Of a DNA stretch of 32,176 nt, positions 8,369 to 32,176 are shown one piece after another. Within the stretch, counting starts at the first letter, position 1. Every line of letters begins with the position of its first letter. Both the position numbers and the translations under genes were made by a program. Location: NCBI GenBank assembly GCA_910574865.1, contig CAJTDN010000028.1, positions 1 to 32,176 on the forward strand, in the 5' to 3' direction. Under the pieces are notes generated by a model, which made no database searches, had not been told where the DNA came from, and saw nothing but the letters and a program-made list of their open reading frames with translations. This DNA comes from Lachnospiraceae bacterium. GTDB taxonomy: Bacteria; Bacillota; Clostridia; Lachnospirales; Lachnospiraceae.

Positions 8369-8399
8369 CTATAATGTCATCTCCTATAGCACAAAATCA

Positions 8400-8665
8400 A
8401 GATTTTTAACACACCCATGATAACACGTTTTCAAGATTTTTTCAATAAGTAAATAGACACGAAATCAAGAAAACGTACATCTCTTAATATGCACGTTTTC
8501 GAGAAATATATGCGTTGTTCCGTTTTCGATAGATATACTGAGGAGCAAAAACATTTGCTCCTCAGTATACGAGGATGCGCACAGCTGCATAAGGAAATAT
8601 GCCGCTTTGCGGCTGCGGCTGGCGCTATACTCACGGCGGATTTCATCTGCCGTGAGTATAATCAT
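8400..8665. repeat. Intergenic hairpin cluster
   Basis: No gene is visible between 8369 and 8705. The stretch holds repeated ACGTTTTC/GAAAACGT motifs (8411, 8470, 8502) that can pair with one another, then a perfect 16-bp stem TATACTGAGGAGCAAA (8534-8549) with its complement (8554-8569) around a 4-base loop, a GCCGC-TTT-GCGGC hairpin (8601-8613), and a 15-bp stem with one mismatch (8627-8641/8645-8659, ATACTCACGGC...). None is followed by a T-run. It may end the minus-strand AraC operon or be a hairpin-type mobile element. Confidence 0.55.
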
Positions 8666-8705
8666 ATTGTCATCCGCATGTCTCCAGGCTCGGGCCAGGG
8701 CTTGC

Positions 8706-10067
8706 TCACGTTCGTTTCGCCGCGCGGTACGCGGCCGGGCTCATGCCGATGACCGCCTGGAAGTCCTGCGAGAAATGGCTGCGGGAGGAGAGGCCGATTT
8801 TCTCCATGACGCTTTGGATGTCGTCGTCCGTGGTGGCGAGCAGGAGGGCGGCGTATTCCATTTTCCGCGCGCGGACGTATTCGCGCAGGGACTGCCCGGT
8901 TTCTTCCTTAAACTTGCGGGAAAGGTAGTACGGCGTGTAACCGATAAGACGCGCCAGTGTTTTTAGCTCCACGGTTTCCGCGAGATGGTTTTGCACGTAA
9001 TCCATGCAGAGCGTGACTTCACGGCCGTAGGCACGTGATTCGCGGCGGCGTTTCTGCAGGTGTTCGTAAAATTCGCGGGAAATCTCTTTCATCAGGTTTT
9101 GCAGGCCGACAGGAGAGTGCGGCTCGTTCTCAATTTTTCCCAGATACTCATCCGCCAGCCGGTATGCTTCCTCGTAGGTAAGCCCGGCCTCCACGGCGGT
9201 TCTTGCGCACAAGGATACCATCATGATGGCGGAGGCCTTTAATTTGCCAACGGGCGACTGGATGCCGGATGCGTCCGTGGGGAGCAGGCTTGGCCGGTAC
9301 GCTTGCGGGTCTTGCCCGGCGGGCAGCCCAAGGTGCAGATACCCGGCGAGTTTTCTTTCCGTGTCCCGGATGGTCTTGTATGTCGATGGTGAGATGTCAA
9401 TGGCCTTTTGTCCAAGTTCCTTGACGGTGCCGGCATAAAAATCTTCTAGTGGCTCGGAAAGGGGAACCGAAACGCGGGTCGAAGCCAATCCGGGGAAACC
9501 AAAATCCGGGCGTTCGGCATGCGAGGGGGCGGATTTTGTTGATTTGAAAGGCGTTATCCGCGGGTCGTCCTGCAGGGAATGCAGTTCCTGGTACGTGACT
9601 TTTTTCCCGGTGACGCAGTAATGCAGCAGGATGGCGTAAGAGGCAAGCTGGGTATGGGGAATGACGGGCAATTGTCCCATGGCTTTTAATAGCTGTCGCT
9701 TGGAGTGGAAATTCATGCCTTGCGCCTCGTATTTTGCCAGGGTACGTTCCAACTGTGCGAGGGACACGGGATATTGGAAGGCGGGACCCAGCAAGTAAAT
9801 CCGTTTCAAATCATCCGCTTCCTTTTCAAGAACGGCGTACCATACCAGCCCCATGTAAATGCTGAGCGCGTAAGGGGCCGAACGTGTTTTCGCATATTCA
9901 TGAAGATATGCGTGGTAGTTGCATTCCAGAAAAAGGCGGTGGAACAAGTTCTGCCGGTCTTCGCTGGGGCAATTGCTGTAAAGCAGCGTTTCATTTTCAT
10001 CATAAATCCAGGCGTACAGATTGGGAATGCAGGATAATACGTCAAGCATGTCGGCTGGAGACGTCAT
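8706..10067 (-). CDS. AraC-family regulator, second gene of a coupled pair
   Basis: This 453-residue protein has a C-terminal AraC DNA-binding domain (about the last 100 residues: C-M-D-Y-V-Q-N-H-L-A-E-T then L-A-R-L-I-G-Y-T-P-Y-Y-L-S-R-K-F, and a second HTH ending F-Q-A-V-I-G-M-S-P-A-A-Y-R). A long N-terminal sensor region (1-330) is related in layout to the next gene and includes the A-S-A-I-M-M-V-S-L-C-A-R-T-A-V-E-A-G-L linker helix. The start chosen is the ATG that overlaps the previous gene's TGA as ATGA, 7 bases after GGGAGG; an ATG at 10082 lies upstream of that site and is less likely. The overlap means translational coupling. It probably helps control the divergent GH2 and lipoprotein genes. 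Confidence 0.88.
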   Translation of the reverse strand: MTSPADMLDVLSCIPNLYAWIYDENETLLYSNCPSEDRQNLFHRLFLECNYHAYLHEYAKTRSAPYALSIYMGLVWYAVLEKEADDLKRIYLLGPAFQYPVSLAQLERTLAKYEAQGMNFHSKRQLLKAMGQLPVIPHTQLASYAILLHYCVTGKKVTYQELHSLQDDPRITPFKSTKSAPSHAERPDFGFPGLASTRVSVPLSEPLEDFYAGTVKELGQKAIDISPSTYKTIRDTERKLAGYLHLGLPAGQDPQAYRPSLLPTDASGIQSPVGKLKASAIMMVSLCARTAVEAGLTYEEAYRLADEYLGKIENEPHSPVGLQNLMKEISREFYEHLQKRRRESRAYGREVTLCMDYVQNHLAETVELKTLARLIGYTPYYLSRKFKEETGQSLREYVRARKMEYAALLLATTDDDIQSVMEKIGLSSRSHFSQDFQAVIGMSPAAYRAAKRT

Positions 10068-11281
10068 GATAATACCTCCCATTCGTTTCGTTTTTGATAA
10101 GTGTTCCGATATTGCTGCGGGGTCATCCCGACGGCCTTTTTAAATAATTTGCCAAGATGGCTCTGTGAGGAAAATCCAAGATAAGAGGAAATCTCGATTA
10201 GGGAGTAATCCGAGTAAATCAGGAGGTTTTCCACCAGCGCCATTTTTTCCGAGAGGATATACTGGTATAGGGACATGCCGGTTTCCTTTCGGAAAAGGGA
10301 AGTCAGGTAATTGGGGTGCACGTAAAAATGCTCCGCGATTTCCTGGATGGTAAGGCGGCTGTGCAGGTGGGAAAAGACATAGTCCTTGCATTGGCCGATT
10401 AACGGGTTGCCACTGGCGGCCGGGACGGGGGAAACGGATTGGGACTGTTTTAAGTCCCGCACCATGGCCGCCAGGTCGCGTTCCGCCTTGTTTGTCAGAA
10501 TTGCCACGTCATAAACATTTTTAATATCTTCGATTTCCTGCATGTAGGCGTCTCCAAGCGTGAAGGCGGCTTCCTGGGTCAGCCCGCCGCGGATGGCCGC
10601 CCGTGTCGCGAGGGCGATGACGATGATGGCGAGGTTTTTTCCGTTCCGATTTGGATCCTTGGCGGTTATGCCGAGAGAACCGGCGTATTGTTCTTCCTTG
10701 CTTTTGGCGAGAAGCTCCAGATTGCCGGTCTCGATGGCAAGCATTTCCCGCTGCTCCTGCGAGTAGGGGTTGTGTTTGGTATTAGACTCCCGGCTGTTGA
10801 AAAGACGGGAGCTGGTCGTGGTCTGCGCGAGCGTCTCGTACCGTTCTTCCAAGCAGTTCGCGGCATAGCATTGGGCCAGTGTTAGCACGCCTTGGTGGGT
10901 CAGGTTGTGCAACAGCAGCAGCGCGTTGGCGAACTCGTCCATGCCATGGGTGAAGAGCTGGTCCGCGATGGAAGACGGCGTGTCGTCGTCTTCCAGTGTG
11001 TGTTTCAGAGCCAGGCCGTGGACGATATTGACGGGGCCGATGATGAAACAATGGGCGGCGGATTTTATGATTCCATAAAAAATATACCCGTTCGTGCATG
11101 CGATGGCGGGCGCGTCGTCGTTGGCAAGTGACAGCAAGGTATTCTCGATTTTCTGGAAAAAAGTGTCGTTTAAGTCAATCCGTTTTGTCTCCGTTTTTAG
11201 AAACCGGCCGTTTCCATCATAAAAGCGTACATGTGTGGAAAACTGGGTGGTGAGGTAATAGAAAATCGCGTCCATGTTCAT
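10064..11281 (-). CDS. AraC-family regulator, first gene of a coupled pair
   Basis: This 405-residue protein has a C-terminal AraC domain (about 295-400) with both HTH units: L-T-I-Q-E-I-A-E-H-F-Y-V-H-P-N-Y-L and S-L-I-E-I-S-S-Y-L-G-F-S-S-Q-S-H-L-G-K-L-F. The N-terminal region carries the same kind of sensor and linker as the gene it overlaps. Among three clustered ATGs (11287, 11281, 11275) the middle one is 7 bases from GGGGAGA (11289-11295) and is preferred. A 279-bp palindromic element begins only 32 bases upstream of the start codon, so promoter and leader lie in or beyond that element. It overlaps the second regulator by four bases. Two related but non-identical regulators could act as a pair on the two half-sites of the shared operator; that is an inference. 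Confidence 0.88.
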   Translation of the reverse strand: MNMDAIFYYLTTQFSTHVRFYDGNGRFLKTETKRIDLNDTFFQKIENTLLSLANDDAPAIACTNGYIFYGIIKSAAHCFIIGPVNIVHGLALKHTLEDDDTPSSIADQLFTHGMDEFANALLLLHNLTHQGVLTLAQCYAANCLEERYETLAQTTTSSRLFNSRESNTKHNPYSQEQREMLAIETGNLELLAKSKEEQYAGSLGITAKDPNRNGKNLAIIVIALATRAAIRGGLTQEAAFTLGDAYMQEIEDIKNVYDVAILTNKAERDLAAMVRDLKQSQSVSPVPAASGNPLIGQCKDYVFSHLHSRLTIQEIAEHFYVHPNYLTSLFRKETGMSLYQYILSEKMALVENLLIYSDYSLIEISSYLGFSSQSHLGKLFKKAVGMTPQQYRNTYQKRNEWEVLS

Positions 11282-11312
11282 GATCATGTCTCCCCGTTGA
11301 AATGTAAAATGG

Positions 11313-11591
11313 TAGCGTCGGTGTACAGAAGGCAACACGCCCGGGCCCATGTGATTTCAAGGGTTTTCAGCGTCATCTTCAATCGGCGTACGTCCTTGTA
11401 CGCCTCATTCATCTTCCTTGAAAACCCTTGAAATCCCTATGGGTGAGGTCGTAGAGTCGTGAAGAGGCATATTTCCCCTCTTTCAAGGCACTTAAGCGAC
11501 GCGTACAAGGACGTACGCGGAGTGAAAGTAACGATGAAAGAGGGGAAATATGCCCTTCATCGACCGTGTTGCCTTCTGTACACCGACGCTA
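11313..11591. repeat. 279-bp nested palindrome with 27-bp terminal inverted repeats
   Basis: The two ends are perfect 27-base inverted repeats (11313-11339 and 11565-11591, outermost bases TAGCGTCGG / CCGACGCTA). Inside are two long stem-loops: a 17-bp stem GATTTCAAGGGTTTTCA (11353-11369/11419-11435) and a 20-bp stem GGCATATTTCCCCTCTTTCA (11466-11485/11535-11554). Each encloses an inner palindrome, GGCGTAC-GTCCTT-GTACGCC and CGCGTAC-AAGGAC-GTACGCG, which are nearly reverse complements of each other. The end base pairs TA...TA would fit a TA target duplication as in IS630/mariner-type MITEs. No coding capacity. Confidence 0.75.
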
Positions 11592-11652
11592 TTATCATGA
11601 CATTGATTATATCTCATCGTGAATCATTTGGCAACGGATAACGGGGTAGAAA

Positions 11653-11816
11653 TCATTTGAAGTTACTGTTCACGGGGCCGTGCGCCCTGCCGCACGGCCA
11701 CCGTCCGATAAAGTGATGGTGTCGGTGGGCATCCAGCCCATTGCCGGAGGCAATTTTAGATGGCTGGATGCTGTTACAATCCACGGCGGTCACGCCGTGA
11801 ATTGTAATCATTTGAA
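11653..11816. repeat. Three-hairpin element, copy B, with 9-bp direct repeats
   Basis: The core 11662-11807 (146 bp) is flanked by TCATTTGAA (11653-11661 and 11808-11816). Ends are GTTACTGTTCACGG and CCGTGAATTGTAA. Stems are GGCCGTGCG/CGCACGGCC (11676-11684/11691-11699), GCATCCAGCC/GGCTGGATGC (11729-11738/11762-11771) enclosing TTGCC-GGA-GGCAA, and TTACAATCCACGGCG/CGCCGTGAATTGTAA with one mismatch. The layout equals copy A at 6833-7006, with stems changed on both sides. The right-hand direct repeat forms the beginning of the AraC operator at 11812. Confidence 0.7.
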
Positions 11817-11871
11817 TAGTGATAAATATATTTGGAAAGTGATATCCAGAATTTGGATTTAAAGATATACT
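11812..11871 (+). promoter_or_regulatory. Tandem AraC operator and promoter of the GH2 gene
   Basis: Two direct half-sites, TTGAATAGTGATA (11812-11824) and TTGGAAAGTGATA (11832-11844), are 20 bases apart; a TATACT -10 box lies at 11866-11871. The same arrangement is found at 14518-14575 in front of the lipoprotein gene, including the AAAYATATT spacer. Direct half-sites about two helical turns apart with the second near -35 are typical of AraC-type activators. The two AraC genes next door are the natural candidates. Confidence 0.7.
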
Positions 11872-11927
11872 TGAAGGCATGAAAACGGTTTTTAATGAGT
11901 TGTGTCGTAACAAGCAGGAGGAATTAT

Positions 11928-14489
11928 ATGAAAGCAGAAAAATTCAATTTGGGATGGTTTGTAAAAGAAGGGGTGGCGGACCCGTTTGCCGCCATTTTTT
12001 CCCCGTCCGGGGCGGGTGGTGAGCCGGTCGTGCTGCCCCAGGACGCCATGATTTTGGAGAAGCGCGACGAGAATTGCCAAAGCAAGGCGCAGTCCGGGTT
12101 TTATCCGGCAAAATCATATACTTATACGAAGGAATTCGAGGCTTTGGAAGAGTGGCGTGAAAAGGTCACCATGATTGAATTCGAAGGAGTCATGATGCAC
12201 GCGCATGTTTTCTTGAATGGGAAGCATCTGGCCACGCATGAGTATGGGTATTCCAATTTTTATGTGGATTTGACACCGTATTTGAACTATGGGGAGAAAA
12301 ACGTTTTGAAGGTGGTGTCCGTCAACAAGGAAAAGGCTTCCCGCTGGTATCCGGGGAGCGGTATTTACAGGGACGTGACGCTCTGGCAGGGCGGCAGGCA
12401 GTACATTCCGGAAGAGACGATCCGGGTCAGGACGGAGACGGTGGAAGACGGTTGCGCCGTTTTGGCGATGGAATATGACGTGGCCAATACGGAGTATAAG
12501 GAAGTAAAACGGAAAGCAATCGTGACGATTTATGACGGGGAAGGAAAGCAGGTTCGCCGGGCGGAACAGTTCCTGATTGTGGAACCGGGCGGGAAAGCAG
12601 AGAATTTCTGCCGCCTGACGGTACCTGAACCCGAATTATGGTCCGTGGACACGCCGAGCTTGTACGAAGCGGAGGTCGTGTTATTTGACGGGGAGGAGGA
12701 ACTGGATGCCGCCCGGGATTCGTTCGGTATCCGGACGTTGTCCTTGAGCGCCGCGTCAGGATTGAAAATCAACGGGGAAACGGTCAAGCTGCGCGGCGCG
12801 TGCATTCATCATGACAATGGCGTCATCGGGGCCACCACGCTGGAGGCGGCCGAGGAATTTCGTTTGAAGGCGTTGAAAAATGCCGGGTTTAACAGTATCC
12901 GCTGTGCGCATAATCCGGCTTCCAAAGCGATGCTCAGGGCTTGCGACCGGATCGGGATGCTGGTGATGGACGAACTTACGGACATGTGGAACGAGCAGAA
13001 AAACGCGAATGATTTTTCCCTTCAGTTTGGCAAGGTATGGGAGGAAGAGGTGAAAAATCTCGTGGACAAGGATTATAATCACCCGTCCGTCGTGATGTAC
13101 AGCACGGGAAACGAGATTCCCGAGATTGGCAGGAGCACCGGGGCCGACATGAACAGGAAACTGGCCAGGGCGTTTCGCGAAGCGGACCATACCCGTTACG
13201 TTACTTGCTGTATCAGTGGATTCTTGGCGGTGGTAGATTGCATGGGAGCGTTCGCGCCGTCGGCGCAACCGACCGGGCAACCGCAGGAGGAAGAGAAGCA
13301 GGAGGCCGGGCGGCAGGAGAAGCAGGAGCAGGTGGCCGGGCAGCCGCAGGCGCGGGTGAGCGAGGGCGGCACAGAAGAAAGGCGGGCGCGCTCAGGCGAG
13401 GGCAGCGAGGAGCTGAACAGCATGATGGGGGCTACGCAGCAACAGATGATGGATGCCTTTTCCGTGAGTCCCGTGTTGGACGAATGCATTGAGCCGGTGG
13501 AATCCGAACTGGATGTTATCGGGTACAATTATTTGACCGCCCGGCATGAATATGAGCACCTGCGCCATCCGGATCGCGTCGTCGTGGGAAGCGAGACATA
13601 TCCGCCGGAAATCCCGAGGCTTTGGGAGATTGTGAAAAAGAACCCGCATGTAATCGGGGATTTTACGTGGACCGGGTTTGATTACCTCGGCGAGGCGGGT
13701 ATCGGAATCTTCCATTATGACGCCGACCAGGAAGGAATGGGGTGGTTCCCGGACAGGCTGGCCTACCAGGGCGATATTGACATCAATGGGAACCGGCGGG
13801 ACATCAGCTATTTCCGTGAAATTGTCTTCGGGCTTAGGAAGGCTCCTTATATCGCGGTAGAGCGGGCCGACAAGGTTGGGCATGTCCATGATGAAAATAA
13901 TTGGAAATTTAAGGACGCGGTGCATAGCTGGACGTTTCCGGGATATGAGGGGACGGTCACGAGGGTTTATGTTTTCTCCGGCCAGGAAGAGGTGGAACTG
14001 TTCTTGAACGGGAAATCCATGGGCAAGAAAAAGGTGGGGGAGACGGAGCCGTTTACGGCGGTTTATGAGGTGCCATACGAGGCAGGGCACTTGTGTGTGA
14101 AAGCGTATGAAAATGGGGCGGCCGTTTGGGAGGACGCGCTGTCCACCGCGGGTGAAATATGTTCGTTTTGTGTGGAGACGACCAAGGAGGAGCTGGCCGC
14201 GGGCGGCGGCGACGCGGCGTTTATTACCGTGGATTTGGCGGATGAGGAAGGGAACCGGAACATGTTTGGCGACCGGGACGTCACGGTTTCGGTGGATGGG
14301 GCCGGCACCCTTCTGGGCTTCGCCTCGGCAAGGCCAAGCGGCGGCGGTGGATATCAGGACACCACTTCCATGACGTATGACGGCAGAATCATGGCGGCGA
14401 TAAGGAGCGCGGAGTATCCGGGGGAAATCCGGGTGCGTTTCACGGCGGAAGGCTGCGGGGAGAAAACGGTATTGCTGCACACGGTATGA
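11928..14489 (+). CDS. Glycoside hydrolase family 2 (beta-galactosidase-like)
   Basis: This 853-residue protein has the GH2 layout: N-terminal jelly-roll sugar-binding domain (residues about 35-150, with the V-F-L-N-G-K and Y-P-G-S-G-I-Y-R motifs), an immunoglobulin-like domain (150-260), the TIM barrel (from about 265, R-G-A-C-I-H-H-D and I-R-C-A-H-N-P), and C-terminal beta domains of the DUF4982 type (E-L-F-L-N-G-K). The acid/base is Glu396 in T-G-N-E-I and the nucleophile Glu556 in G-S-E-T-Y. No signal peptide, so it acts on imported glycosides in the cytoplasm. An AGGAGG site lies 6 bases before the ATG. A glutamine/glutamate-rich insert of about 60 residues (13258-13430) interrupts the barrel between the two catalytic residues and is unusual. 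Specificity (galactoside, glucuronide, mannoside) cannot be read from the sequence. Confidence 0.9.
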   Translation: MKAEKFNLGWFVKEGVADPFAAIFSPSGAGGEPVVLPQDAMILEKRDENCQSKAQSGFYPAKSYTYTKEFEALEEWREKVTMIEFEGVMMHAHVFLNGKHLATHEYGYSNFYVDLTPYLNYGEKNVLKVVSVNKEKASRWYPGSGIYRDVTLWQGGRQYIPEETIRVRTETVEDGCAVLAMEYDVANTEYKEVKRKAIVTIYDGEGKQVRRAEQFLIVEPGGKAENFCRLTVPEPELWSVDTPSLYEAEVVLFDGEEELDAARDSFGIRTLSLSAASGLKINGETVKLRGACIHHDNGVIGATTLEAAEEFRLKALKNAGFNSIRCAHNPASKAMLRACDRIGMLVMDELTDMWNEQKNANDFSLQFGKVWEEEVKNLVDKDYNHPSVVMYSTGNEIPEIGRSTGADMNRKLARAFREADHTRYVTCCISGFLAVVDCMGAFAPSAQPTGQPQEEEKQEAGRQEKQEQVAGQPQARVSEGGTEERRARSGEGSEELNSMMGATQQQMMDAFSVSPVLDECIEPVESELDVIGYNYLTARHEYEHLRHPDRVVVGSETYPPEIPRLWEIVKKNPHVIGDFTWTGFDYLGEAGIGIFHYDADQEGMGWFPDRLAYQGDIDINGNRRDISYFREIVFGLRKAPYIAVERADKVGHVHDENNWKFKDAVHSWTFPGYEGTVTRVYVFSGQEEVELFLNGKSMGKKKVGETEPFTAVYEVPYEAGHLCVKAYENGAAVWEDALSTAGEICSFCVETTKEELAAGGGDAAFITVDLADEEGNRNMFGDRDVTVSVDGAGTLLGFASARPSGGGGYQDTTSMTYDGRIMAAIRSAEYPGEIRVRFTAEGCGEKTVLLHTV

Positions 14490-23677: not shown

Positions 23678-23735
23678 CTGGTACAACCAGTTCCTGTTGA
23701 AAAATATTTTGTTTTTCGTTATACTGGTGGTACCA
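23678..23735 (+). promoter_or_regulatory. GntR-gene promoter with two FadR-type operators
   Basis: TTGAAA (23697-23702) and TATACT (23720-23725) with a 17-base spacer form a strong promoter. It is bracketed by TGGTACAACCA (23679-23689, in the longer palindrome CTGGTACAACCAG) and TGGTGGTACCA (23725-23735), the latter overlapping the -10 box. TGGT-N3-ACCA is the pattern bound by FadR-type GntR regulators. This suggests autorepression and possibly joint control of the divergent oxidoreductase. Confidence 0.75.
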
Positions 23736-23766
23736 TGGCACTGAACGTCAAGGGGGCGTTCGCTTC

Positions 23767-23913
23767 GTGCCAACCGTGGCGGGGCAAAGACCGCGGGGAG
23801 CACGAGGCGCGTGGCAATCCGTGGCGGGGCAAAGACCGCGGGGAGCACGAAGCGCGTGGCAATCCGTGGCGGGACAAAGACCGCGGGGAGCACGAAGCAC
23901 GTGGCAGTCCGTG
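23767..23913. repeat. 45-bp tandem repeat before the GntR gene
   Basis: Three units (23767-23810, 23811-23855, 23856-23900) of GTGGCAATCC-GTGGCGGGGC and so on, the last followed by a 13-base partial. Units 2 and 3 differ at only two positions. The length is a multiple of three, so frames stay open through it on both strands, but the real GntR start lies after it. It is far more GC-rich than its AT-rich surroundings. Confidence 0.85.
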
Positions 23914-23951: not shown

Positions 23952-24659
23952 GTGGAATTTAAAAAAATCAGTTCCCCGACCTTGCGGGAGCTGTTTGTCC
24001 AACAATTGGAAGATTTGATTTTGTCGGGAAAATTGAAAATCGGGGAAAAATTGCCGACCGAGCGGCAGCTGGCGGAGTCGATGCAGGTCAGCCGTTCCGT
24101 CGTGAACAATGGCCTTTCGGATTTGGAGAAGAAGGGATTCCTCGTCGTGAAACCAAGAAGCGGCACTTACGTGGAGGACTATCGCAAGAACGGGACGTTG
24201 GATACGTTGATTTCCATTATGAAATTTAACGGGGGGCGCCTGCGCAATGACGAGGTGAAATCGATCTTGGAGGTTCGAATCGCGCTGGATACCCTCGCGG
24301 CCAGGTTGTGCGTTCCTAACATAACCGACGAGGAGGTAGAGGTGCTGCACCAGGACGTGGAGCGCATTCGCAAGGCGGACGGCATCGGCGAGGCTTCGGA
24401 GGCGGCATTTGATTTTCAGCATGATTTTGCCTTGTTTTCCAAAAACACGCTGATTCCATTGATTTTCCAGTCCTTCCACACGCCCGTGTTCACCCTCTGG
24501 GAACGGTTTTGCACGTTGTATGGCATTTCCGCGCTTTACGATAATAATTACACGTTGTGGACGTATATCCGTGACCGGGACACGGAAGGAGCCGTCACCT
24601 GGATTGAGAAGTCGATTAATGAAAGCGTGCGGGGAAGCCGGAAGATTTATTATGATTGA
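23952..24659 (+). CDS. GntR/FadR-family transcriptional regulator
   Basis: This 235-residue protein has an N-terminal winged HTH of the GntR type (residues about 10-75: I-L-S-G-K-L-K-I-G-E-K-L-P-T-E-R-Q-L-A then V-S-R-S-V-V and R-S-G-T-Y-V) and a C-terminal helical FCD domain (80-225) as in FadR, with E-V-R-I-A-L-D and helical A-F-D-F-Q-H-D-F. FCD regulators bind carboxylic acids or similar metabolites. The start is GTG, 7 bases after GGGAGGA (23938-23944); the frame remains open through the tandem repeat but that part is not protein-like. Two matching operators in its own promoter suggest autoregulation. The divergent oxidoreductase/DUF5692 genes are the likely targets. Confidence 0.88.
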   Translation: MEFKKISSPTLRELFVQQLEDLILSGKLKIGEKLPTERQLAESMQVSRSVVNNGLSDLEKKGFLVVKPRSGTYVEDYRKNGTLDTLISIMKFNGGRLRNDEVKSILEVRIALDTLAARLCVPNITDEEVEVLHQDVERIRKADGIGEASEAAFDFQHDFALFSKNTLIPLIFQSFHTPVFTLWERFCTLYGISALYDNNYTLWTYIRDRDTEGAVTWIEKSINESVRGSRKIYYD

Positions 24660-24930
24660 CAATGATGTGCTTTGTGGCATCCTATTGAAAGGGCAAATGA
24701 TTTCTAGTAAGATGCGTATGATAGGCGAGAGGGGGACTTTGCCTGATGGCGGGAGCAACCACGGCGGGAATGATGCTGGTGGCCGTAATCTTGTCGAAGG
24801 TGATACTTGCCGGATTGTTTTACGGGGAGCGCGCGTGGCTGGGGCGGGAGTATACATATCAAATTGTAAGATTTTCACCAAAAAATATTTGTTCGTTTTT
24901 TGCGGGGGTGCCGTTAAAAATTTGGAAAAA
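24660..24930. other. Intergenic stretch with no assignable gene
   Basis: The gap between the GntR gene and the Spo0A-type regulator has an open frame from ATG 24746 whose first about 35 codons are hydrophobic (M-A-G-A-T-T-A-G-M-M-L-V-A-V). It is followed by a Lys-rich tail that is simply the box array at 24931-24969. It may be a decayed membrane-protein end; it is not called a gene. No terminator for the GntR gene was found. Confidence 0.4.
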
Positions 24931-24993
24931 GACGAAAAGGTCGAAAAAAGTCGAAAAAAGTCGATTGAAATCTCTTTGCCACATTGGTACAAT
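24931..24993 (+). promoter_or_regulatory. Phased 0A-box-like array and promoter of the Spo0A-like gene
   Basis: GACGAAAAG, GTCGAAAAAA, GTCGAAAAAA and GTCGATTGAA follow each other from 24931 to 24969 with about a 10-base period. The last unit runs into TTGAAA (24965-24970), which with TACAAT (24988-24993) and a 17-base spacer makes a near-ideal promoter. Spo0A boxes (TGTCGAA) in tandem at 10-bp steps are the known binding mode for the Spo0A C-terminal domain, as in the abrB operator. The regulator encoded downstream has such a domain, so autoregulation is likely. Confidence 0.7.
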
Positions 24994-25123
24994 ATATTGG
25001 ATAATGGGATGGAAAGCCTATGGAAACGGGCTATACCAGGACGGTTTGTGCGTCGGTTTGACTCGTCACCCATGAGAGTAGAGGTTTTGTGCGGTTCCCA
25101 AAAAATTTCCAGGTAGGGGTCGC

Positions 25124-25180
25124 TAATCCGACAGTCCACATGCAAGGCAATGAATTGTATGCATGTGAGTTGCCGGATTA
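25124..25180 (+). promoter_or_regulatory. 21-bp imperfect hairpin in the regulator leader
   Basis: TAATCCGACA...CACATGCA (25124-25144) pairs with TGCATGTG...TGCCGGATTA (25160-25180), with 17 of 21 positions paired around a 15-base loop. It lies between the promoter and the ATG at 25215, so it belongs to the 5' untranslated RNA, and argues against the longer frame that opens with GTG at 25089. It might control translation or RNA stability. Confidence 0.6.
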
Positions 25181-25214
25181 CAACCGCACAGTCGGAAAAA
25201 TGGCGGGAACATAC

Positions 25215-26015
25215 ATGAGAAGAGGTGCGGCTTTGAAAGCGAAGAGAGTTCTGATAGTGGAGGACGAAGTGGAAGTCCGCGAAGAGTACAAAAGGCTGAT
25301 GAGGGAAAAACATCCCGGATTGAGCCTGGCGGGGGAGACGGATGATACGCGGGAGGCACTTCGGATTTTGCAAAGCACGACAGTGGATGCGGTCATACTT
25401 GACTTGGAACTGGGGGGAGATTTTGGAATCAGCTTTCTGGATGGTTTGAATGAATTGAAAGGGGAAAGGCCGTTTGTCGTGGTGGTTACCAAGGTTACTT
25501 GGAAAGACCTTTCCCGATCGCTTTATAATCGGGGGGCAAATTGCGTTTGCATTAAGGGTGGAAAAAATTTCACGCTGGACAAACCTTTGACTTTTGTTGA
25601 CGTGGTGGCTGGCCGGTGGAAACCGAAAGAATCCATGAACGAATATGCGGATAATGTAAATTTGCAAACACAGGTGGATGTTTATAGGAATGATATACTA
25701 GGGGCACTGGAAGAAATGGGGTTTCCGGACAGTGGATGTGGTACGGAGCAGTGTGTGGAAGCACTTCTTTACATTGTGTTGTCCGAGAAAAAGGAGGTCA
25801 GTATCACGAAGGATGTGTACCCTTATGTGGCATATGTTTGTAAGACGAATGGAAGGAACGTGGAGATAAACATTCGAAAGAGTATTGAAAAGGTGTGGCT
25901 GTGTGGGTATGGAAAGAAACTGCGAAAATTGTACCCGTATGAGTGGAGCCATGAGAGCGGCAGGCCGACGAATGCGGAATTTCTTAGAAACATGGCAAAA
26001 AAATGGATAAAGTAA
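25215..26015 (+). CDS. Spo0A-like response regulator
   Basis: This 266-residue protein has the size and domain order of Spo0A. The receiver domain (about 9-125) has the acidic pair Glu16-Asp17, phosphoacceptor Asp63 (V-I-L-D-L-E-L), Thr92 and Lys114, all in the expected spacing. The C-terminal domain (about 150-266) matches the Spo0A DNA-binding domain: S-I-T-K-D-V-Y-P-Y-V-A, then V-E-I-N-I-R-K-S-I-E-K-V-W and the diagnostic R-P-T-N-A-E-F-L near the end. It differs from canonical Spo0A in many positions, so it is a paralogue with its own targets. ATG 25215 and TTG 25233 (with AGAGGTG 5 bases before) are both possible starts. A small peptide gene and a membrane kinase follow, and phased box arrays flank the locus. 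Confidence 0.88.
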   Translation: MRRGAALKAKRVLIVEDEVEVREEYKRLMREKHPGLSLAGETDDTREALRILQSTTVDAVILDLELGGDFGISFLDGLNELKGERPFVVVVTKVTWKDLSRSLYNRGANCVCIKGGKNFTLDKPLTFVDVVAGRWKPKESMNEYADNVNLQTQVDVYRNDILGALEEMGFPDSGCGTEQCVEALLYIVLSEKKEVSITKDVYPYVAYVCKTNGRNVEINIRKSIEKVWLCGYGKKLRKLYPYEWSHESGRPTNAEFLRNMAKKWIK

Positions 26016-26033
26016 CGGGCTTGTAAGAACAAG

Positions 26034-26059
26034 TCGAATTCCTCCGACTGGATTCGACG
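26034..26059. promoter_or_regulatory. Inverted TCGAAT boxes after the regulator gene
   Basis: GTCGAAT (26034-26040) and ATTCGAC (26053-26059) are perfect inverted copies 19 bases apart, 57 bases before the peptide gene. They carry the same GTCGAA core as the arrays. A small CTTGT-AAGA-ACAAG hairpin precedes it, and GGACTTTTCT follows, so a weak terminator is the alternative reading. Confidence 0.5.
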
Positions 26060-26115
26060 GACTTTTCTCTCCTCAAATTGTATGTTATGTGAAAACATGC
26101 AAGGGAGGGAAGAAG

Positions 26116-26160
26116 ATGAGCTTTTGGGAATGGCTGAAGTATTTCTTGGGAAATATATAA
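26116..26160 (+). CDS. 14-residue hydrophobic/aromatic peptide, candidate signal
   Basis: ATG 26116 opens MSFWEWLKYFLGNI and ends at TAA 26160. It has an excellent GGGAGGG site 7 bases upstream (26103-26109) and is followed after 12 bases by a strong intrinsic terminator. This is the arrangement of a real, highly expressed very short gene rather than a chance frame. The peptide is amphipathic with two Trp, two Phe and one Tyr. Its location between a Spo0A-like regulator and an AgrC-like kinase makes a secreted signal the obvious guess; it has no Cys for a thiolactone and no AgrB-type processing gene is in the window. It could also be a membrane-active peptide or a leader peptide controlling the terminator. 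Confidence 0.6.
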   Translation: MSFWEWLKYFLGNI

Positions 26161-26172
26161 GTAGTAGAGGTG

Positions 26173-26206
26173 GGCGGCAATATAGATTATGCCGCCTATT
26201 TTTTTT
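26173..26206 (+). terminator. Intrinsic terminator between peptide and kinase genes
   Basis: GGCGGCA (26173-26179) pairs with TGCCGCC (26190-26196) around a 10-base loop, and eight T residues end at 26206. The kinase ribosome binding site begins right after it (GAAAGGAA, 26207-26214). The kinase therefore depends on read-through, which would keep its level far below that of the peptide. Confidence 0.85.
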
Positions 26207-26223
26207 GAAAGGAATAATAACAA

Positions 26224-27543
26224 ATGATAATTCATATGGTTATAGAGTGGATGAGGATTACTGTGATTTTGCTTGGTCTTTATGTGTTGGCTGGAAGAGG
26301 GCAGATTAAAAGGAGATGGATATATTGGGTGTTGACGGCGTTTATGATGGGGACGTGCATATTCGTAAGAGTCATACCTTTCCAAAACGCGAGTATTCGT
26401 TATGTGATTGAAATGGGGATACTGTTTCTTTATACATTTTTCTGCTATCAACAGAATAGGGGACGAAATTTTATGTGCTTGACAATGGTCAGTGTGGTAA
26501 TTGACGTGATAAGTGTTTTGGCAAGTGCAATTGCTTATTTGTTACAAGGTGGTTCTCCAGGAGAAAATTATCAGTTAGTTACGCAGATGGCGATAGTTTT
26601 AATGTATGCTGTGCTTTTGTGTGTGTACCCACTAATTCGAAGAGGAAAATGGTTTGATTTTAGGAAAAATAATTCTACGATTGCAGTTGCTGGCATGACT
26701 TTTTGTTTACTGTTTGCAAAGGGTGTGGTGCTGGCATTTGTTGGAAGTGGAGACGAAAACAATAATGTGTATTGGCTTTTGACTGCTTCGTTCGTATTTG
26801 CGTTAGGTGCTTGTGTATTATGGGCGTTGAACAAAAAAGTAGAGGATGAAAGCAGGAGGGAATTAATCAGGTATCACCACCGCGAGAAAGAGGTGCTTCC
26901 CACGGTGGAGAGAGTTTTGGAAAAGATGAAGGATTTGTCAGGTGATTCAGAAGAATTGAATAAAACCATGGCGGAGTTGCAGGAACTTTGCCACACGGAT
27001 GAAAGGATAACAAGGGCGGAGGCCCTTTCCGCAAAGACATTTGTATCTACGGGAAGCCCTTTGCTGGATGATATGTTGGAACGATATTTGTTAGAGGCGG
27101 CGCATAAGGAAATCGAGGTGGACATTATCGTGCAAGCCCCGATAAGCCCTCTCTTAAAAGAACAAAAAATAGAAATCGGACTGCTTTTACGGATGTTTGG
27201 AGATATTTACCGTAATGCGGAGAAAGTGGTTTTGAAAAAAGGGGACGAGGGACAAGTCTTGGTTTGTATGGGATACAATCAGGATGGGGAGTATGAGATT
27301 TCCGTGTATGATAACGGGGCGGCTTTCCCGGGACATGTCTTGAAACGTCTGGGTCAACGAGGCGTGACGACGGATGGGACGGGGCATGGGATGGCAGACG
27401 TGTTCGAGGTCTTGGATAAGTATAAGATTAGTTTCATGCTTGAACAACATTTTCCGAAAGAGCATATGTTTACCAAAGCCGTACGGCTGATTTTTGATCG
27501 CCAGGGAAGACGAGAAATCTGCGAAGGCTCCGAGAGGGGTTGA
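26224..27543 (+). CDS. AgrC-like membrane sensor histidine kinase (GHKL type)
   Basis: This 439-residue protein has about seven membrane segments in residues 8-200 and a cytoplasmic kinase part. The ATPase domain is of the GHKL/HATPase_c_5 type seen in AgrC and ComD: N-box Asn331 in D-I-Y-R-N-A-E-K, G1 box Asp363 in Y-D-N-G, and the G2 box with R-G-V-T-T-D-G-T-G-H-G-M. The phosphoacceptor region is less typical; Tyr217-His218-His219 (R-Y-H-H-R-E-K-E) after the last membrane helix is the best candidate. Peptide-sensing kinases share this layout. It follows the 14-residue peptide gene and a terminator, and is next to the Spo0A-like regulator that it could phosphorylate. The last codons overlap the start of the phased box array. 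Confidence 0.87.
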   Translation: MIIHMVIEWMRITVILLGLYVLAGRGQIKRRWIYWVLTAFMMGTCIFVRVIPFQNASIRYVIEMGILFLYTFFCYQQNRGRNFMCLTMVSVVIDVISVLASAIAYLLQGGSPGENYQLVTQMAIVLMYAVLLCVYPLIRRGKWFDFRKNNSTIAVAGMTFCLLFAKGVVLAFVGSGDENNNVYWLLTASFVFALGACVLWALNKKVEDESRRELIRYHHREKEVLPTVERVLEKMKDLSGDSEELNKTMAELQELCHTDERITRAEALSAKTFVSTGSPLLDDMLERYLLEAAHKEIEVDIIVQAPISPLLKEQKIEIGLLLRMFGDIYRNAEKVVLKKGDEGQVLVCMGYNQDGEYEISVYDNGAAFPGHVLKRLGQRGVTTDGTGHGMADVFEVLDKYKISFMLEQHFPKEHMFTKAVRLIFDRQGRREICEGSERG

Positions 27544-27548
27544 AAAAA

Positions 27549-27704
27549 TTCGAGGAGGCTCAAGAAGGATTGAGAAGGCTTGAGAAAGATCGAGGAGGCT
27601 CGAAAGAGTTCGAGAAAGTTCGAAAAAGTTCGACTAAATTCGAGAAAAGCCCGAAAATAAGGGAACTATGGGGGATGCCGGAAGTTCGAAAAGATTCGAC
27701 TTTT
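27549..27704. promoter_or_regulatory. Phased TCGA-box array upstream of the RHS gene
   Basis: Ten consecutive 10-base units run from 27549 to 27648 (TTCGAGGAGG, CTCAAGAAGG, ATTGAGAAGG ... TTCGAGAAAG, TTCGAAAAAG, TTCGACTAAA, TTCGAGAAAA). Two more, TTCGAAAAGA and TTCGACTTTT, follow at 27685-27704 just before TTGAAT. The period equals one helical turn, so all boxes face the same side of the DNA. The core is the same TCGAA as in the array before the Spo0A-like gene. The later units are closest to consensus; the earlier ones are degenerate. Confidence 0.7.
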
Positions 27705-27705
27705 A

Positions 27706-27738
27706 TTGAATGATTTTTCACGCGTAGTCCGCTACAAT
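27706..27738 (+). promoter_or_regulatory. Possible activator-dependent promoter of the RHS gene
   Basis: TTGAAT (27706-27711) and TACAAT (27733-27738) are 21 bases apart, too wide for normal sigma-A recognition. The Bacillus subtilis spoIIG promoter is known to have a similarly wide (22-base) spacer and to need Spo0A bound next to -35. Box units end at 27704, right beside the -35 element, so the same mechanism is plausible. Confidence 0.45.
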
Positions 27739-27750
27739 GGTATGTAGGAA

Positions 27751-27950
27751 GTAATGGAACCTATTTCCATTACGCATTTATATCAGATGGGGGATGACTC
27801 CCGCCTCTATAGGCGGTGGGTAACATGTTTGTATCAGTGGCGGGAGTCGATCTCCCATCTGATATGCCTCCGGCGGATGGCAGGCGCACAAAGATGTATT
27901 TTGTCAGCATGGCTGACCTGTCGCCGCCGCAAGAACGCCGGCGGTGCTTT
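27751..27950 (+). ncRNA. Structured leader of the RHS gene (attenuator or riboswitch-like)
   Basis: GTAATGGAA/TTCCATTAC forms a 9-bp hairpin (27751-27773). Then 27780-27805 pairs with 27839-27865 in a nearly perfect long stem (one mismatch and one bulge; ends ATATCAGATGG / CCATCTGATAT). Within it, CCGCC (27801-27805) can instead pair with GGCGG (27812-27816), so two folds compete. A third hairpin CCGCCG/CGGCGG (27924-27929/27939-27944) followed by TGCTTTTG lies just before the AGGAGG site at 27971. This looks like a regulated leader. It matches no riboswitch class recognised by eye. Confidence 0.55.
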
Positions 27951-27984
27951 TGAACTACACGAATGACGCGAGGAGGAATTATTC

Positions 27985-30900
27985 ATGTTGCGAAAGAGGA
28001 AAATCAGGAGACGATACTTCAGGACTTCCGTGGCCCTTCTATTGGCGGCCATCCTGGCTTTGCAGGGGACGAGTCCGCTTTTCGTCCAGGCGAAGGACGT
28101 GGTGGAGAACACCCCGAGGACGGTGGACTTTTCAAGGCCGGAGGCCTTGCGGTCCCTGGAAGAGGCGGGCGTGACGGACGGCGTGTCACCAGAAGCGTCC
28201 GACGCGGACCATACGGATGGCGCGGGCGGCGGGATGGGAACGAACCGGCCGGATGCAAATGGGACAAAAGCCGACGGTTCCAATGCGGCTGATGTTGACA
28301 AGGCCGGTTCCGGCGCGGATGCCGACAAGACGGATGGGGACAAGACGGATGCTGGCGCGGGCACCGATTCTAGCGCGGCCGATACGGACACGGATGTCGA
28401 CAAGGGCAATGACAATGCATCCGATTCCGAGGCGGATGCGAACAAGGGAAATGCCGGCGCGGCGGATAAGAATGCCACTAAGACGGATACCAACGCGGCC
28501 AATGCGGGTGCCGATAAGGTGGATACCAACGCGGCCAATGCGGGTGTCGATAAGGCGGATACCAACGCGGCCGATGCGGATGCCGACGCGACGGATGGGG
28601 ATGCCAATTCCGGTTCCGCGGCTGGTTCCGACGGGGATGCCGATGTCGATACGGGTTCCGGGGAAGGCAAGATTCCCTCCGACCCGGAGGCCGAGGGCAG
28701 GGAGCCGGAGGATTTCTACCCGATACCGGAGGAGCCGGAGGGCGAGCTGGTCAGCTTCGACGGCGGCTCCCGCACCTACCGCACGGGCGACGGACAGTAC
28801 ACGACCGTCATCGGCGGCTACGTGGGGACGTACCAGGACGACGGGGGCGAATTTCAACTGGCGGACAACACGCTGGTGGAGCCGGAGACGACCGCCTACG
28901 CCGCCGGCGCGGGCGAAGAAACAGGAGCAGGCGGCGGACGAAACAGCGCGAATGGTCAAAACAACGCCGCCAGCGCGGCAGCAGATGGCGCGGCCGGCCA
29001 GGCCAACGCCGCCGCGGCCAACAGCCAAAATGGCGCGAATGGCCGGAATAACGCCGCCGCCAATGACCGGAACGGCGTGGCCAATCCTGGCTTCGTGCAC
29101 AACAAGCAGAACGACTATCTGGTCGTGCTCCCGAAGAACATCACCCCTGAGGCGGGGATGGTGCTCGTGCGCGGCGAGGACACGATGGAAATCGTGCCGC
29201 AGGGCGGCGACTTTTCCCATTCCGTGGTCAAGGACAACGCCATCCGCTACAACCAGGTGTACGACGGCATTGACGTGCAGTACACGGTTTTAAACGAGAA
29301 CATCAAGGAAGACATCATCCTGCGAAAGCCAATGGGGCAGGAGAGCTTCACCTATGAGTTGAAAATTCCCGGCCTGAAGGCCGAGTTGATAGAGAATCAA
29401 ATATATATTTACCCGGAAGAGAAAGACGAGGGCGAGGCGCGCGAGGAGGCGCGGTTCATCCTCGAGGCGCCGTCGATGGAGGACGCGGCGGGCGAGGTGA
29501 GCGTCCATATCGAGATGGGGCTTCGCGTGGAAGAAGACGGACGCGTGCTGCTGACGGTCACGCCGGACAAGGAATGGCTGGCCGACGAGGCGCGCCAGTA
29601 CCCGGTGCGTATCGACCCGAGCACGGTCAACGTCGGCCGCGAGTCGTTCAGCATGATTGGCGTGGAGCAGGGCAGTCCCAACGTCAACATTGGCGATAAC
29701 AATTACCCGTATGTCGGCTACGACGACGGCATCGTGTCCGGCAACATCGAGTTCGGTTCGATACATCGAATTTGCCGCACGTACATCAAAATCACCGGCG
29801 GGCTGGAGTCCATCCCCGCCGACGTGAAGATTGACAGTGCGACATTCTCCGTCAGCCAGCGCACGAATTTCAGCAAGGGGAATTCGCAGTTCGGACTTTA
29901 CCGGGTGGACGGTGCGTGGGACGGCAGCGTGACATGGATGACGCAGCCAGGCAACCACACGTTCATCGACGTGCAGAACGCCAGCCCGAAGGCGAACCAG
30001 TACATTCAGTACAACGTGAAGGAACTGGTCAACGACTGGGTGCAGGGGACGTATGCCAACAACGGCATGGTGCTGAAGGCCGTCGACGAGGCTTCCGGCC
30101 TGGACGCGGCCATGCAGTGCGAGGTGCTGAATAATCGCAACTCCGTCTACGGGCCGACACTGACCGTGCAATGGTCGCCGGCGGAGGACCCGTTCCTGCG
30201 CGACTTGTCGCTCGACGACACGACGATCACGCTGCGGCCGATGACGGAAAAGGCGGTCAGCGGGAAACTGACGTTTGACGGCATTTTCGCGGACGGCCTG
30301 GCAAAGAGCGGGGCCACGGTGGAATATTACCTGGTTCCGGACGAGGAGGCGGCAGAGGCGCATCGCGAGACGAAGGCTGAGGGCCTATACACATACCCGG
30401 ACAGCACCGCCTACAACCTCGTTTTCCCGCAGGCGAACAAATATTACGGGAAGGACAGCAACTGGCAGGGGACGCTCTACGCCGGTCTGGAGAAGGACAA
30501 GCTCTACACCATCAAGGCGCGGGCTTCCAAGGCGAACGCGGAGGGCGAAATCGAGACGGGAAAAGAAATAACGAGCGACAGCTTCCTCGTTTATGAGGTA
30601 AAGCAGTTTGACACGCTGCCGAAAATCGCCCGTTATTACGGCGTGCCCCTGGCCGACCTGATGCGTGACAACCAGGTGCAGGACGCGCTGGTCATCGCGG
30701 GCAACACGCTCTTTGTGCGCAATCCGCAGACGAACGTGCCGTACAGCCCGGCCGGTCTGACCGATATTGACAAGATGAAAATCGACGGCGCGCTGATGGG
30801 GCGCGGGCTGCATTGCGAGTTCGGTTTTGAGCCGATCAACTTAAACACCGGCAACTTTTACATGGAACAAGAGGACACGGCACTGGCCGACCTGGGCGGC

Positions 30901-32176
30901 GAGTTCGCCCTCACGCGCAGCTACAACTCCAAGGGCGCGAACCAGGTCAGCATGTTCGGCCGTGGCTGGAGCTTCGAATACGAGCGGGGCCTCACGCAGA
31001 CGGAGGACGGCGGCATTTTCTACACGCGGGGCGACGGCGGGTACTTGTACTTCACCAGAAATGAGGACGGTAGCTTTAGTGCGCCGGCCGGTTATGCGCT
31101 CGAACTGCGCCCGGTGCATTATGAAGGAACGGATAGGGATCACATCGGCTGGGAGCTGGTGGACGAGGAGAAAAAGGTGTGGTCGTTCGACAAATACGGC
31201 GTGCTGCGCTTCGTGACCGACCGCCTTGGTTTCCAGACGACGTTCGATTACGACGAGGCTTACGCGCTGACGAAAATCACGCTTCCCTCGGGAAGGGCGT
31301 TCGCATTCGAGCAGGACGAGCAGGGGTTCGTGACCCATGTGACGCGCCCCGACGGCGGAAAGCTGGCCTATGAATACGACGAGAACCACCGGCTCGTTGC
31401 CTATACGAACGCCAACGGCGGCAGGCGCACATATCATTATGATGAAAATGGCCTGATGACCTCGTGGGAGGACGCAAACGGCAACGCCGTGGTCACCAAC
31501 ACCTACGATCAGGAAGGGCGCGTCGTCGCGCAGACGGACGCGAATGGGAATATGGCCACGTTTGCCTACGCAAACGGCCAGACGACCACGACCGACAACG
31601 AGGGAAACGTCACGGTCTACCATTATGATGAAATGTACCGCACGACCCTCGTCGAGTATCCTGACAAAACGACGAAAACGTGCGCCTATAACGGGCAGAA
31701 CCAATTGGAATCCGAGACGACGGCGGGCGGTACGAGAACCTATGCCTACGACGGGGCGGGCAACGTCGTCACGATGACCCGCGAGGACGGGGCGGCCGCG
31801 CATTACACGTACAACGAGAAAAACCAGGTCACTTCCGTCACCAATTATGACGGCGGCGTGACGACCATGCAATATAATGAGGCGGGCGACCTCGTGCGAA
31901 GCACGGATGCCAACGGCAACGCGACGGGCTACGAGTATGACGAATCGCACCGCGTCATTGCCATGACCGACGGGAACGGCATCCGCACGGCCTACGCCTA
32001 CGACGGGGCGAACCTTGTCTCGTACACCGACGGCAACGGCAACACGTGGGGCTTTGGCTACAACGGGATGGGCCTGCCGACGGGCATGACGGATCCGCTG
32101 GGAAATGTGACGGCTGTTGGCTATGACATGGAAGGAAATAAAGTGTCGGAGACGGCGGCGGACGGCGGGACGACGA
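27985..32176 (+). CDS. Very large secreted DNRLRE/LysM/RHS-repeat protein (3' end outside window)
   Basis: The frame stays open for 1397 codons to the window edge. It starts with a basic signal peptide (L-R-K-R-K-I-R-R-R then a hydrophobic core to about residue 35). Residues about 70-235 are Asp/Asn/Ala-rich low complexity with 12-residue repeats, and 305-370 Ala/Asn-rich. A DNRLRE domain covers about 552-732, a LysM domain about 867-912 (Y-E-V-K-Q-F-D-T-L-P-K-I-A), then a DUF6531-type entry domain (L-N-T-G-N-F-Y, 945-1030), and YD/RHS repeats from about 1072 (Y-E-Y-D, H-Y-D-E, Y-A-Y-D-G-A-G-N). This is the build of a wall-associated polymorphic toxin or adhesin; the variable C-terminal payload is not in view. 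AGGAGG lies 8 bases before the ATG. The gene is much more GC-rich than its neighbours. Confidence 0.88.
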   Translation, partial: MLRKRKIRRRYFRTSVALLLAAILALQGTSPLFVQAKDVVENTPRTVDFSRPEALRSLEEAGVTDGVSPEASDADHTDGAGGGMGTNRPDANGTKADGSNAADVDKAGSGADADKTDGDKTDAGAGTDSSAADTDTDVDKGNDNASDSEADANKGNAGAADKNATKTDTNAANAGADKVDTNAANAGVDKADTNAADADADATDGDANSGSAAGSDGDADVDTGSGEGKIPSDPEAEGREPEDFYPIPEEPEGELVSFDGGSRTYRTGDGQYTTVIGGYVGTYQDDGGEFQLADNTLVEPETTAYAAGAGEETGAGGGRNSANGQNNAASAAADGAAGQANAAAANSQNGANGRNNAAANDRNGVANPGFVHNKQNDYLVVLPKNITPEAGMVLVRGEDTMEIVPQGGDFSHSVVKDNAIRYNQVYDGIDVQYTVLNENIKEDIILRKPMGQESFTYELKIPGLKAELIENQIYIYPEEKDEGEAREEARFILEAPSMEDAAGEVSVHIEMGLRVEEDGRVLLTVTPDKEWLADEARQYPVRIDPSTVNVGRESFSMIGVEQGSPNVNIGDNNYPYVGYDDGIVSGNIEFGSIHRICRTYIKITGGLESIPADVKIDSATFSVSQRTNFSKGNSQFGLYRVDGAWDGSVTWMTQPGNHTFIDVQNASPKANQYIQYNVKELVNDWVQGTYANNGMVLKAVDEASGLDAAMQCEVLNNRNSVYGPTLTVQWSPAEDPFLRDLSLDDTTITLRPMTEKAVSGKLTFDGIFADGLAKSGATVEYYLVPDEEAAEAHRETKAEGLYTYPDSTAYNLVFPQANKYYGKDSNWQGTLYAGLEKDKLYTIKARASKANAEGEIETGKEITSDSFLVYEVKQFDTLPKIARYYGVPLADLMRDNQVQDALVIAGNTLFVRNPQTNVPYSPAGLTDIDKMKIDGALMGRGLHCEFGFEPINLNTGNFYMEQEDTALADLGGEFALTRSYNSKGANQVSMFGRGWSFEYERGLTQTEDGGIFYTRGDGGYLYFTRNEDGSFSAPAGYALELRPVHYEGTDRDHIGWELVDEEKKVWSFDKYGVLRFVTDRLGFQTTFDYDEAYALTKITLPSGRAFAFEQDEQGFVTHVTRPDGGKLAYEYDENHRLVAYTNANGGRRTYHYDENGLMTSWEDANGNAVVTNTYDQEGRVVAQTDANGNMATFAYANGQTTTTDNEGNVTVYHYDEMYRTTLVEYPDKTTKTCAYNGQNQLESETTAGGTRTYAYDGAGNVVTMTREDGAAAHYTYNEKNQVTSVTNYDGGVTTMQYNEAGDLVRSTDANGNATGYEYDESHRVIAMTDGNGIRTAYAYDGANLVSYTDGNGNTWGFGYNGMGLPTGMTDPLGNVTAVGYDMEGNKVSETAADGGTT
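28486..28593 (+). repeat. 36-bp coding tandem repeat in the RHS protein
   Basis: Three units of 36 bases starting GATACCAACGCGGCC (28486, 28522, 28558) encode D-T-N-A-A-N-A-G-A-D-K-V with small changes; the third is diverged in its second half. It lies in the Asp/Asn/Ala-rich segment after the signal peptide, likely a flexible wall-spanning stalk whose length can vary by recombination. Confidence 0.75.

Follow-up and report, generated by a model that had tools for sequence, protein, structure and literature searches.

The 32,176-base stretch of DNA surveyed here (the window), from a gut-type bacterium of the Lachnospiraceae, is the whole of contig G000:C28 from a genome totalling 5.33 Mb. On its forward strand a response regulator (RR) gene with a Spo0A_C output domain, a gene of 14 codons, a membrane histidine kinase (HK) gene and an RHS gene follow one another in that order. 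An initial annotation had described the first three as consecutive on one strand, with a strong ribosome binding site and a terminator for the tiny gene and a multi-pass kinase, and this was confirmed. The genes recur in related genomes, the short one encoding a leaderless amphipathic peptide beside the kinase, and arrays of box sequences precede these genes. On balance, they probably constitute a peptide-signalling two-component module, in which a leaderless peptide, an agr-like kinase and a Spo0A-type RR would be autoinduced via tandem 0A-like boxes.

The peptide gene (26116..26160, forward strand) opens with an ATG at 26116, comprises 14 codons plus a stop, is preceded by the ribosome site GGGAGGGAAGAAG and encodes the leaderless, amphipathic peptide MSFWEWLKYFLGNI. 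Directly after it, at 26161..26212 on the same strand, lies a terminator-like hairpin with a T run (-19.8 kcal/mol, z -4.4; as good in 0/200 shuffles), and hairpins of differing sequence occupy the same place 3' of the peptide in 5/5 loci of the genus tested, those of L006, L032, L033 and L034 among them. Since the window's open reading frame (ORF) is sense-oriented and a terminator-like hairpin stands before the kinase, it could be taken for a leader peptide attenuating the kinase, or else for a chance ORF, both of which are very improbable. Across 37 peptide-bearing loci the peptide gene is in sense orientation relative to the kinase in 21 and antisense, on the opposite strand, in the other 16; an antisense gene can have no attenuator role, and the leader-peptide explanation was therefore rejected for those 16 loci. 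On a kinase tree rooted at its midpoint, and read irrespective of branch support, these 16 fall into a single group.

The chance explanation was rejected for the set as a whole by shuffling and by control intergenic regions. An ORF was accepted if it had an ATG start, 11-20 codons and a five-base ribosome-site match on either strand, the length limits having been chosen after the first loci were seen. Thirty of 40 RR-HK pairs were kept for the count, ten being dropped for gaps shorter than 100 nt (L040, L036.0, L058, L043, L083, L084 and L086) or longer than 700 nt (L036.1, L067 and L072), while L032 was kept with a redrawn gap, since the kinase ORF there begins 5' of the peptide. A conforming ORF was found in 28/30 of these gaps, compared with a mean of 4.2 and a maximum of 10 in 300 dinucleotide shuffles, and a Trp-bearing one in 27/30 (shuffle mean 0.89, maximum 3, again from 300). 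In control intergenic regions of related loci the corresponding figures were 14/149 and 2/149, one of the latter two being the L073 module region. Six of the seven gaps fetched later (L069, L071, L073, L075, L076, L079 and L081) also passed. The strict rule missed the L076 peptide, chose an unlikely ORF in L044 and found none in L034.0, and some of the 37 peptides had first been chosen by eye (L036, L039, L044, L058, L067, L069, L071, L072, L073, L076 and others).

The regulator-peptide-kinase neighbourhood proposed in the initial annotation recurs well beyond the window, with the short gene conserved in relatives. A kinase search of 98 relatives gave matches in 14, several with an adjoining Spo0A_C RR. 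Profile searches matched at least 19/397 genomes of the family (E up to 1e-15), at least 15/392 of the order and at least 11/391 of the class (both E up to 1e-25), and at least 1/348 of the phylum, the single match there being the window's own genome. Each draw of genomes includes that genome and the draws overlap; the counts are lower bounds because scoring was confined to the best three or four candidates in each genome. Kinase and peptide were found together at loci from seven of the class's families (f1, f5, f12, f19, f62, f80 and f91). The RR is adjacent in five of these, and for f12 and f62 no RR lay within the stretch fetched around the kinase. For fourteen kinase hits the sequence retrieved contained no RR; contig ends truncate at least seven of these.

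The window's own genome carries a second copy of the module on contig C15 (L006); its peptide is MTFWEWLRYLLRRG and its kinase shares 46% identity with that of the window. A frame change within the variable linker interrupts the L006 RR (8328-9322), reflecting either an assembly error or a pseudogene. A third site on contig C16 (L037, G000:C16:104000-113710) bears a C39-peptidase ABC transporter, an FtsX-type permease and, before an RHS-like gene, a short kinase remnant; this second gene is called RHS-like on the likeness of its start to that of the window RHS gene. At another locus, L034 (G001:C321), one RR and one peptide gene lie between two kinases whose sensor halves differ. Searches of plasmid, phage and viral-contig collections, the last with profile A2, found no relative of the window kinase, and a mobile or phage origin of the module was rejected on this ground.

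The 37 peptides are leaderless, 12-19 residues long and contain 13.8% Trp. Their mean hydrophobic moment peaks, among ten angles tried, at the helical 100 degrees, and in 35/37 it exceeds the mean of the peptide's own permutations (Stouffer z 10.9). Examples are MEDLYEEFLEWLRKWLP, MWKEIWRLMCDIIAGR and the tandem pair MSFWEWLAYVLTGGGV and MSFWEWLAYLLAGGGV; the start SFWEW is common to the distant families of the window (f1), L045 (f19) and L070 (f62). A Trp-rich leaderless amphipathic helix, encoded in tandem copies at L045, L042 and L087 and by a gene that the boxes precede, might also be expected of an output, that is, a surfactant resembling phenol-soluble modulins, an antimicrobial or a membrane toxin under RR-HK control, with the kinase sensing something else, perhaps membrane damage. 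Such an effector role is unlikely. The peptide follows the kinase, being present in four of the six kinase loci that have upstream sequence and no RR nearby (L042, L070, L085 and L087), whereas no Trp-rich peptide was found at 14 selected loci where an extra Spo0A_C gene stands without a module kinase, the nearest thing being a one-Trp ORF about 2 kb away in L152. These 14 were picked from a larger number of extra Spo0A_C hits and several lie near contig ends (e.g., L158, L159 and L164). Moreover, genes for immunity or export do not recur widely, and most of the peptides have a net charge of -1 to +2, which would be unusual for an antimicrobial.

The kinase (26224..27543, forward strand) has 439 residues. 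Its AlphaFold model (mean pLDDT 77) comprises seven predicted N-terminal helices followed by a DHp/CA part, while hydropathy gives six or seven helices depending on the threshold. His219 is invariant and the ATPase domain divergent, HATPase_c scoring 22.2 bits, under the Pfam cut-off of 26.4. The cytoplasmic part of AgrC, aligned over 218-427, was among the top structural matches to the model, tied with other kinases; this was the sole structural comparison (VIA-align 2) and it covers mainly residues 275-426 of the cytoplasmic part. Between the two closest kinase pairs the sensor half is 62% and 64% identical, versus 93% and 89% for the cytoplasmic half, indicating that the sensor diverges faster.

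Small membrane proteins such as MgrB and SafA exert feedback on PhoQ in cis, and the peptide may similarly act as a small protein attached to the membrane, adjusting the kinase inside the producer with no cell-to-cell signalling. The lack of a leader and of a widely recurring exporter would suit such a modulator, as would an amphipathic helix that fits the inner membrane face and a peptide that stays with the kinase. Rapid change of the sensor half, even among close relatives, is more typical of signal-receptor pairs, and this cis role is considered rather improbable.

The RR is read from an ORF at 25089-26015 of the forward strand (Response_reg 47 bits, Spo0A_C 69 bits). Judged from the sequence, the true start is probably the ATG at 25215 or the TTG at 25233 instead of the GTG at 25089, which would place the gene at 25215..26015. 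Both the receiver and Spo0A_C are above Pfam cut-offs in the window RR, as in the RRs of L036 and L048. The Spo0A equivalog TIGR02875 (curated cut-off 200 bits) was not reached by the window RR (76.5 bits) nor by three further module RRs (101.9, 107.7 and 69.6 bits). A separate Spo0A_C match of at least 137 bits was present in 25/27 module genomes searched, and in the window's genome a distinct high-scoring Spo0A is located on C7. By these scores the window RR is a Spo0A paralogue and not Spo0A itself. The initial annotation had regarded Spo0A as normally a phosphorelay endpoint, a premise that does not hold: in Clostridia, Spo0A is considered to receive its phosphate straight from kinases (PMC6136694; PMC11210211), and the window RR is not Spo0A. 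Compared with clostridial Spo0A and its orphan sporulation kinases, the module shares the receiver and Spo0A_C domains and an expected direct transfer from kinase to RR, as well as tandem boxes resembling the 0A box; it differs in that its RR is a paralogue under the equivalog cut-off and nearly all module genomes searched encode a separate, high-scoring Spo0A_C protein. The Spo0A_C domain is treated as unique to Spo0A in PMC6136694, and to that statement the module RR family is an exception.

Phased boxes before the regulator's own gene and the RHS gene, as claimed by the initial annotation, are present, and boxes precede the peptide gene too. The 0A box, TGTCGAA, is bound by the Spo0A C-terminal domain in tandem with 10-bp spacing. 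Upstream of the RR gene, three tandem GTCGA(A/T) boxes of period 10 (24940..24965, forward strand; GTCGAA at 24940 and 24950, GTCGAT at 24960) overlap or immediately precede the -35 element of a promoter-like site, TTGAAA-N17-TACAAT, an arrangement seen also in L032 (G002). The cluster GTCGAA...TCCGAC...TTCGAC (26033..26058, forward strand), again of period 10, precedes the peptide gene with GTCGAA at 26033 and TTCGAC at 26053, and L032, L006, L033 and L034 have a comparable stretch. Before the RHS gene (27549..27700, forward strand; also in L032 and L037), TCGA boxes spaced in tens run from 27549 to 27639, 3/10 places being degenerate, and a separate pair stands at 27685/27695. Lag-10 self-similarity over 27530-27720 reached z 8.3 against one set of shuffles and 9.1 against another, with z 3.1 before the RR and 2.0 before the peptide.

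Across the window's genome, the pattern TTCGA-N5-TTCGA-N5-TTCGA with up to two mismatches gave 29 matches versus 5 for a reversed control. Eighteen of the 29 are at the module copies (12 on the window contig and one after the second kinase) or at the ABC and RHS-like genes of C16 (five), and three are isolated. Arrays precede the RR, the peptide, two RHS genes (one of them the RHS-like gene on C16) and the C39 ABC gene. In the relative G002, they are found before the RR and the RHS gene, and another follows the second kinase before a HerA-like gene; L006, L033 and L035 have no array before their RR. A different box, TGTRGATTTT, with a period of ten, lies between peptide and kinase in G174, where 8/9 of its genome matches fall. 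At L037, the box pairs and promoters of the C39 ABC and RHS-like genes are closely like those of the window RHS gene.

In the course of events that we infer for a signalling module, the leaderless, amphipathic, Trp-rich peptide of 12-19 residues would be made from its own small transcription unit and would reach the membrane or the outside of the cell, where the multi-pass domain of the adjacent kinase would sense it. The kinase would then phosphorylate the adjacent Spo0A_C RR, and the RR would bind the tandem 0A-like boxes spaced 10 bp apart. Such binding would switch on the RR and peptide genes, amounting to autoinduction, and would switch on target genes too, here possibly the RHS proteins and the C39-peptidase ABC transporter.

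Several observations weigh against this signalling interpretation. Peptide and sensor half correlate in a simple Mantel test (p 0.0005), the r of 0.21 falling to 0.085 after dropping 10 pairs among five loci of the window's genus. The covariation of peptide and sensor region, by which the initial annotation had suggested its circuit be checked, did not appear beyond common descent: in a partial Mantel test on the cytoplasmic half, r was 0.03 and p 0.31. The run comprised 36/37 peptide-bearing kinases (the partial L034 kinase was left out), and the L032 row overran its stop by a few codons. The signalling, effector and cis-modulator readings are not separated by this test. Two kinases with upstream sequence and no RR nearby (L078 and L082) lack a peptide, and so do five RR-HK pairs with gaps shorter than 100 nt (L040, L043, L083, L084 and L086). 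Relatives with regulator and kinase and no conserved short gene between them had been named as evidence against the circuit; they turned out to be this minority, the short gene being conserved in most usable gaps. Exporter or processing genes do not recur widely either, an ABC ATPase being found at 3/37 loci (L032, L060 and L076); loci often extend only 3-5 kb per side and no search was aimed at exporters of the Pmt type. As for the boxes, the lag-10 signal ahead of the peptide genes (z 6.6) owes much to two loci, L056 and L049, with lag 23 also standing out (z 4.7), and 8/29 genome matches make up two arrays at unrelated genes, five on C1 (MATE transporter) and three on C18 (a gene with an RNA-dependent RNA polymerase domain). 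Spo0A, or some other regulator, could be the protein that uses these two arrays.

The C1 array (L117, G000:C1:211000-230000) is a long period-10 array of GTCGAAAAAA type at 8940-9060, upstream of the MATE transporter gene on the minus strand. On C18 (L118, G000:C18:66000-82972), a period-10 TCGA-type array lies just upstream of a gene (9560-12531) whose 910-residue product has the RNA-dependent RNA polymerase domain PF05183; two similar genes of 243-282 aa follow.

The possible target in the window, an RHS-repeat protein gene with a signal-like start (27985..32176, forward strand), is incomplete because the window is the whole contig, whose end cuts it; RHS repeats and DUF6531 were found in its product. 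A link between the module and RHS genes was seen in G000 and G002 alone, both belonging to the genus of the window. Over 24850-28000, promoter-like sites were not in excess (5 versus 5.7 in shuffles), and terminator-like sites numbered 6 versus 2.8, a scan that omitted the peptide hairpin, which was shown by a separate folding test. Rfam gave nothing reaching the gathering threshold over 24600-28000. Elsewhere in the window, short tandem repeats with several frames open were noted at 23700-23900, at the start of a GntR-family ORF. Among neighbouring genes at the 37 loci, a 123-aa XRE-type regulator was found in six, all of one branch (L045, L069, L071, L072, L073 and L079), and a third neighbour-gene family in three.

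On sequence grounds, the recurrence of a tiny peptide beside the same kind of sensor in other bacteria points to an undescribed route of signalling from one bacterium to another. It is just on the likely side of even that the peptides form a widespread, undescribed class of Clostridia pheromones, consisting of leaderless Trp-rich amphipathic helices that are read by a dedicated seven-helix kinase and relayed to Spo0A_C regulators of a second class, which bind 10-bp tandem arrays. No description of the module was found by title or abstract in the open-licence literature, a search to which subscription papers and preprints were external. The Spo0A_C-domain RRs described here, other than Spo0A and placed with a kinase and a peptide, would mean, if the proposal is true, that the Spo0A output domain has been recruited for cell-cell signalling apart from sporulation. 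Should the peptide be a signal, many mostly uncultured Clostridia would own a communication system, one that gene callers tend to miss because the signal gene has fewer than 20 codons and is often on the opposite strand. The peptides are short and no processing enzyme was seen, and they should therefore be easy to synthesise and test.

Pheromone systems such as ComCDE and PlnABCD have adjacent genes for a peptide, a kinase and an RR, and the module shares with these and with agr a peptide gene, a multi-pass membrane kinase and an RR side by side. It further resembles agr in that the sensor half diverges fastest in close pairs and the cytoplasmic part of AgrC aligns with the kinase model, as other kinases do equally well. 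Unlike agr and ComCDE, it has no propeptide or leader, and its output domain is Spo0A_C, not the LytTR of AgrA and ComE. The agr peptide is a thiolactone or lactone cut from a longer AgrD precursor, whereas the window ORF has 14 residues and no Cys. In ComCDE and bacteriocin pheromones a double-glycine leader is followed by the mature peptide; here Gly-Gly occurs in a few peptides (e.g., L045, L046, L085 and L087) at the very end, with two residues at most after it. Both agr and ComCDE need AgrB or a leader-cutting exporter. AgrB had no match in 10/25 module genomes searched, and in these 25 genomes no match lay on the module contig except in the one-contig G1090 (nearest more than 200 kb away), although contig breaks could hide some; the only match in the window's genome (G000) is on C8. 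An AgrB-dependent agr system was rejected, there being no AgrB beside the modules.

According to PMC10518010, the LCP/SIP peptides acting with RopB are very short, leaderless and hydrophobic or aromatic, with a strong ribosome site, and their genes adjoin that of the receptor, frequently in the opposite orientation. A leaderless peptide with a good ribosome site beside the presumed receptor gene is likewise found in the module. However, the LCP receptors described there are cytosolic RopB-clan proteins and LCPs of 8-9 residues are described, whereas the module has a membrane kinase and an RR as neighbours and peptides of 12-19 residues; the terms histidine kinase, two-component and Lachnospir are absent from the main text of PMC10518010. 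The XRE-type neighbour mentioned above, at 123 aa, is too short for a RopB. Finally, phenol-soluble modulins and delta-toxin are leaderless amphipathic helical peptides. The module peptides share this property but have fewer residues and more Trp, and they go together with a kinase gene.

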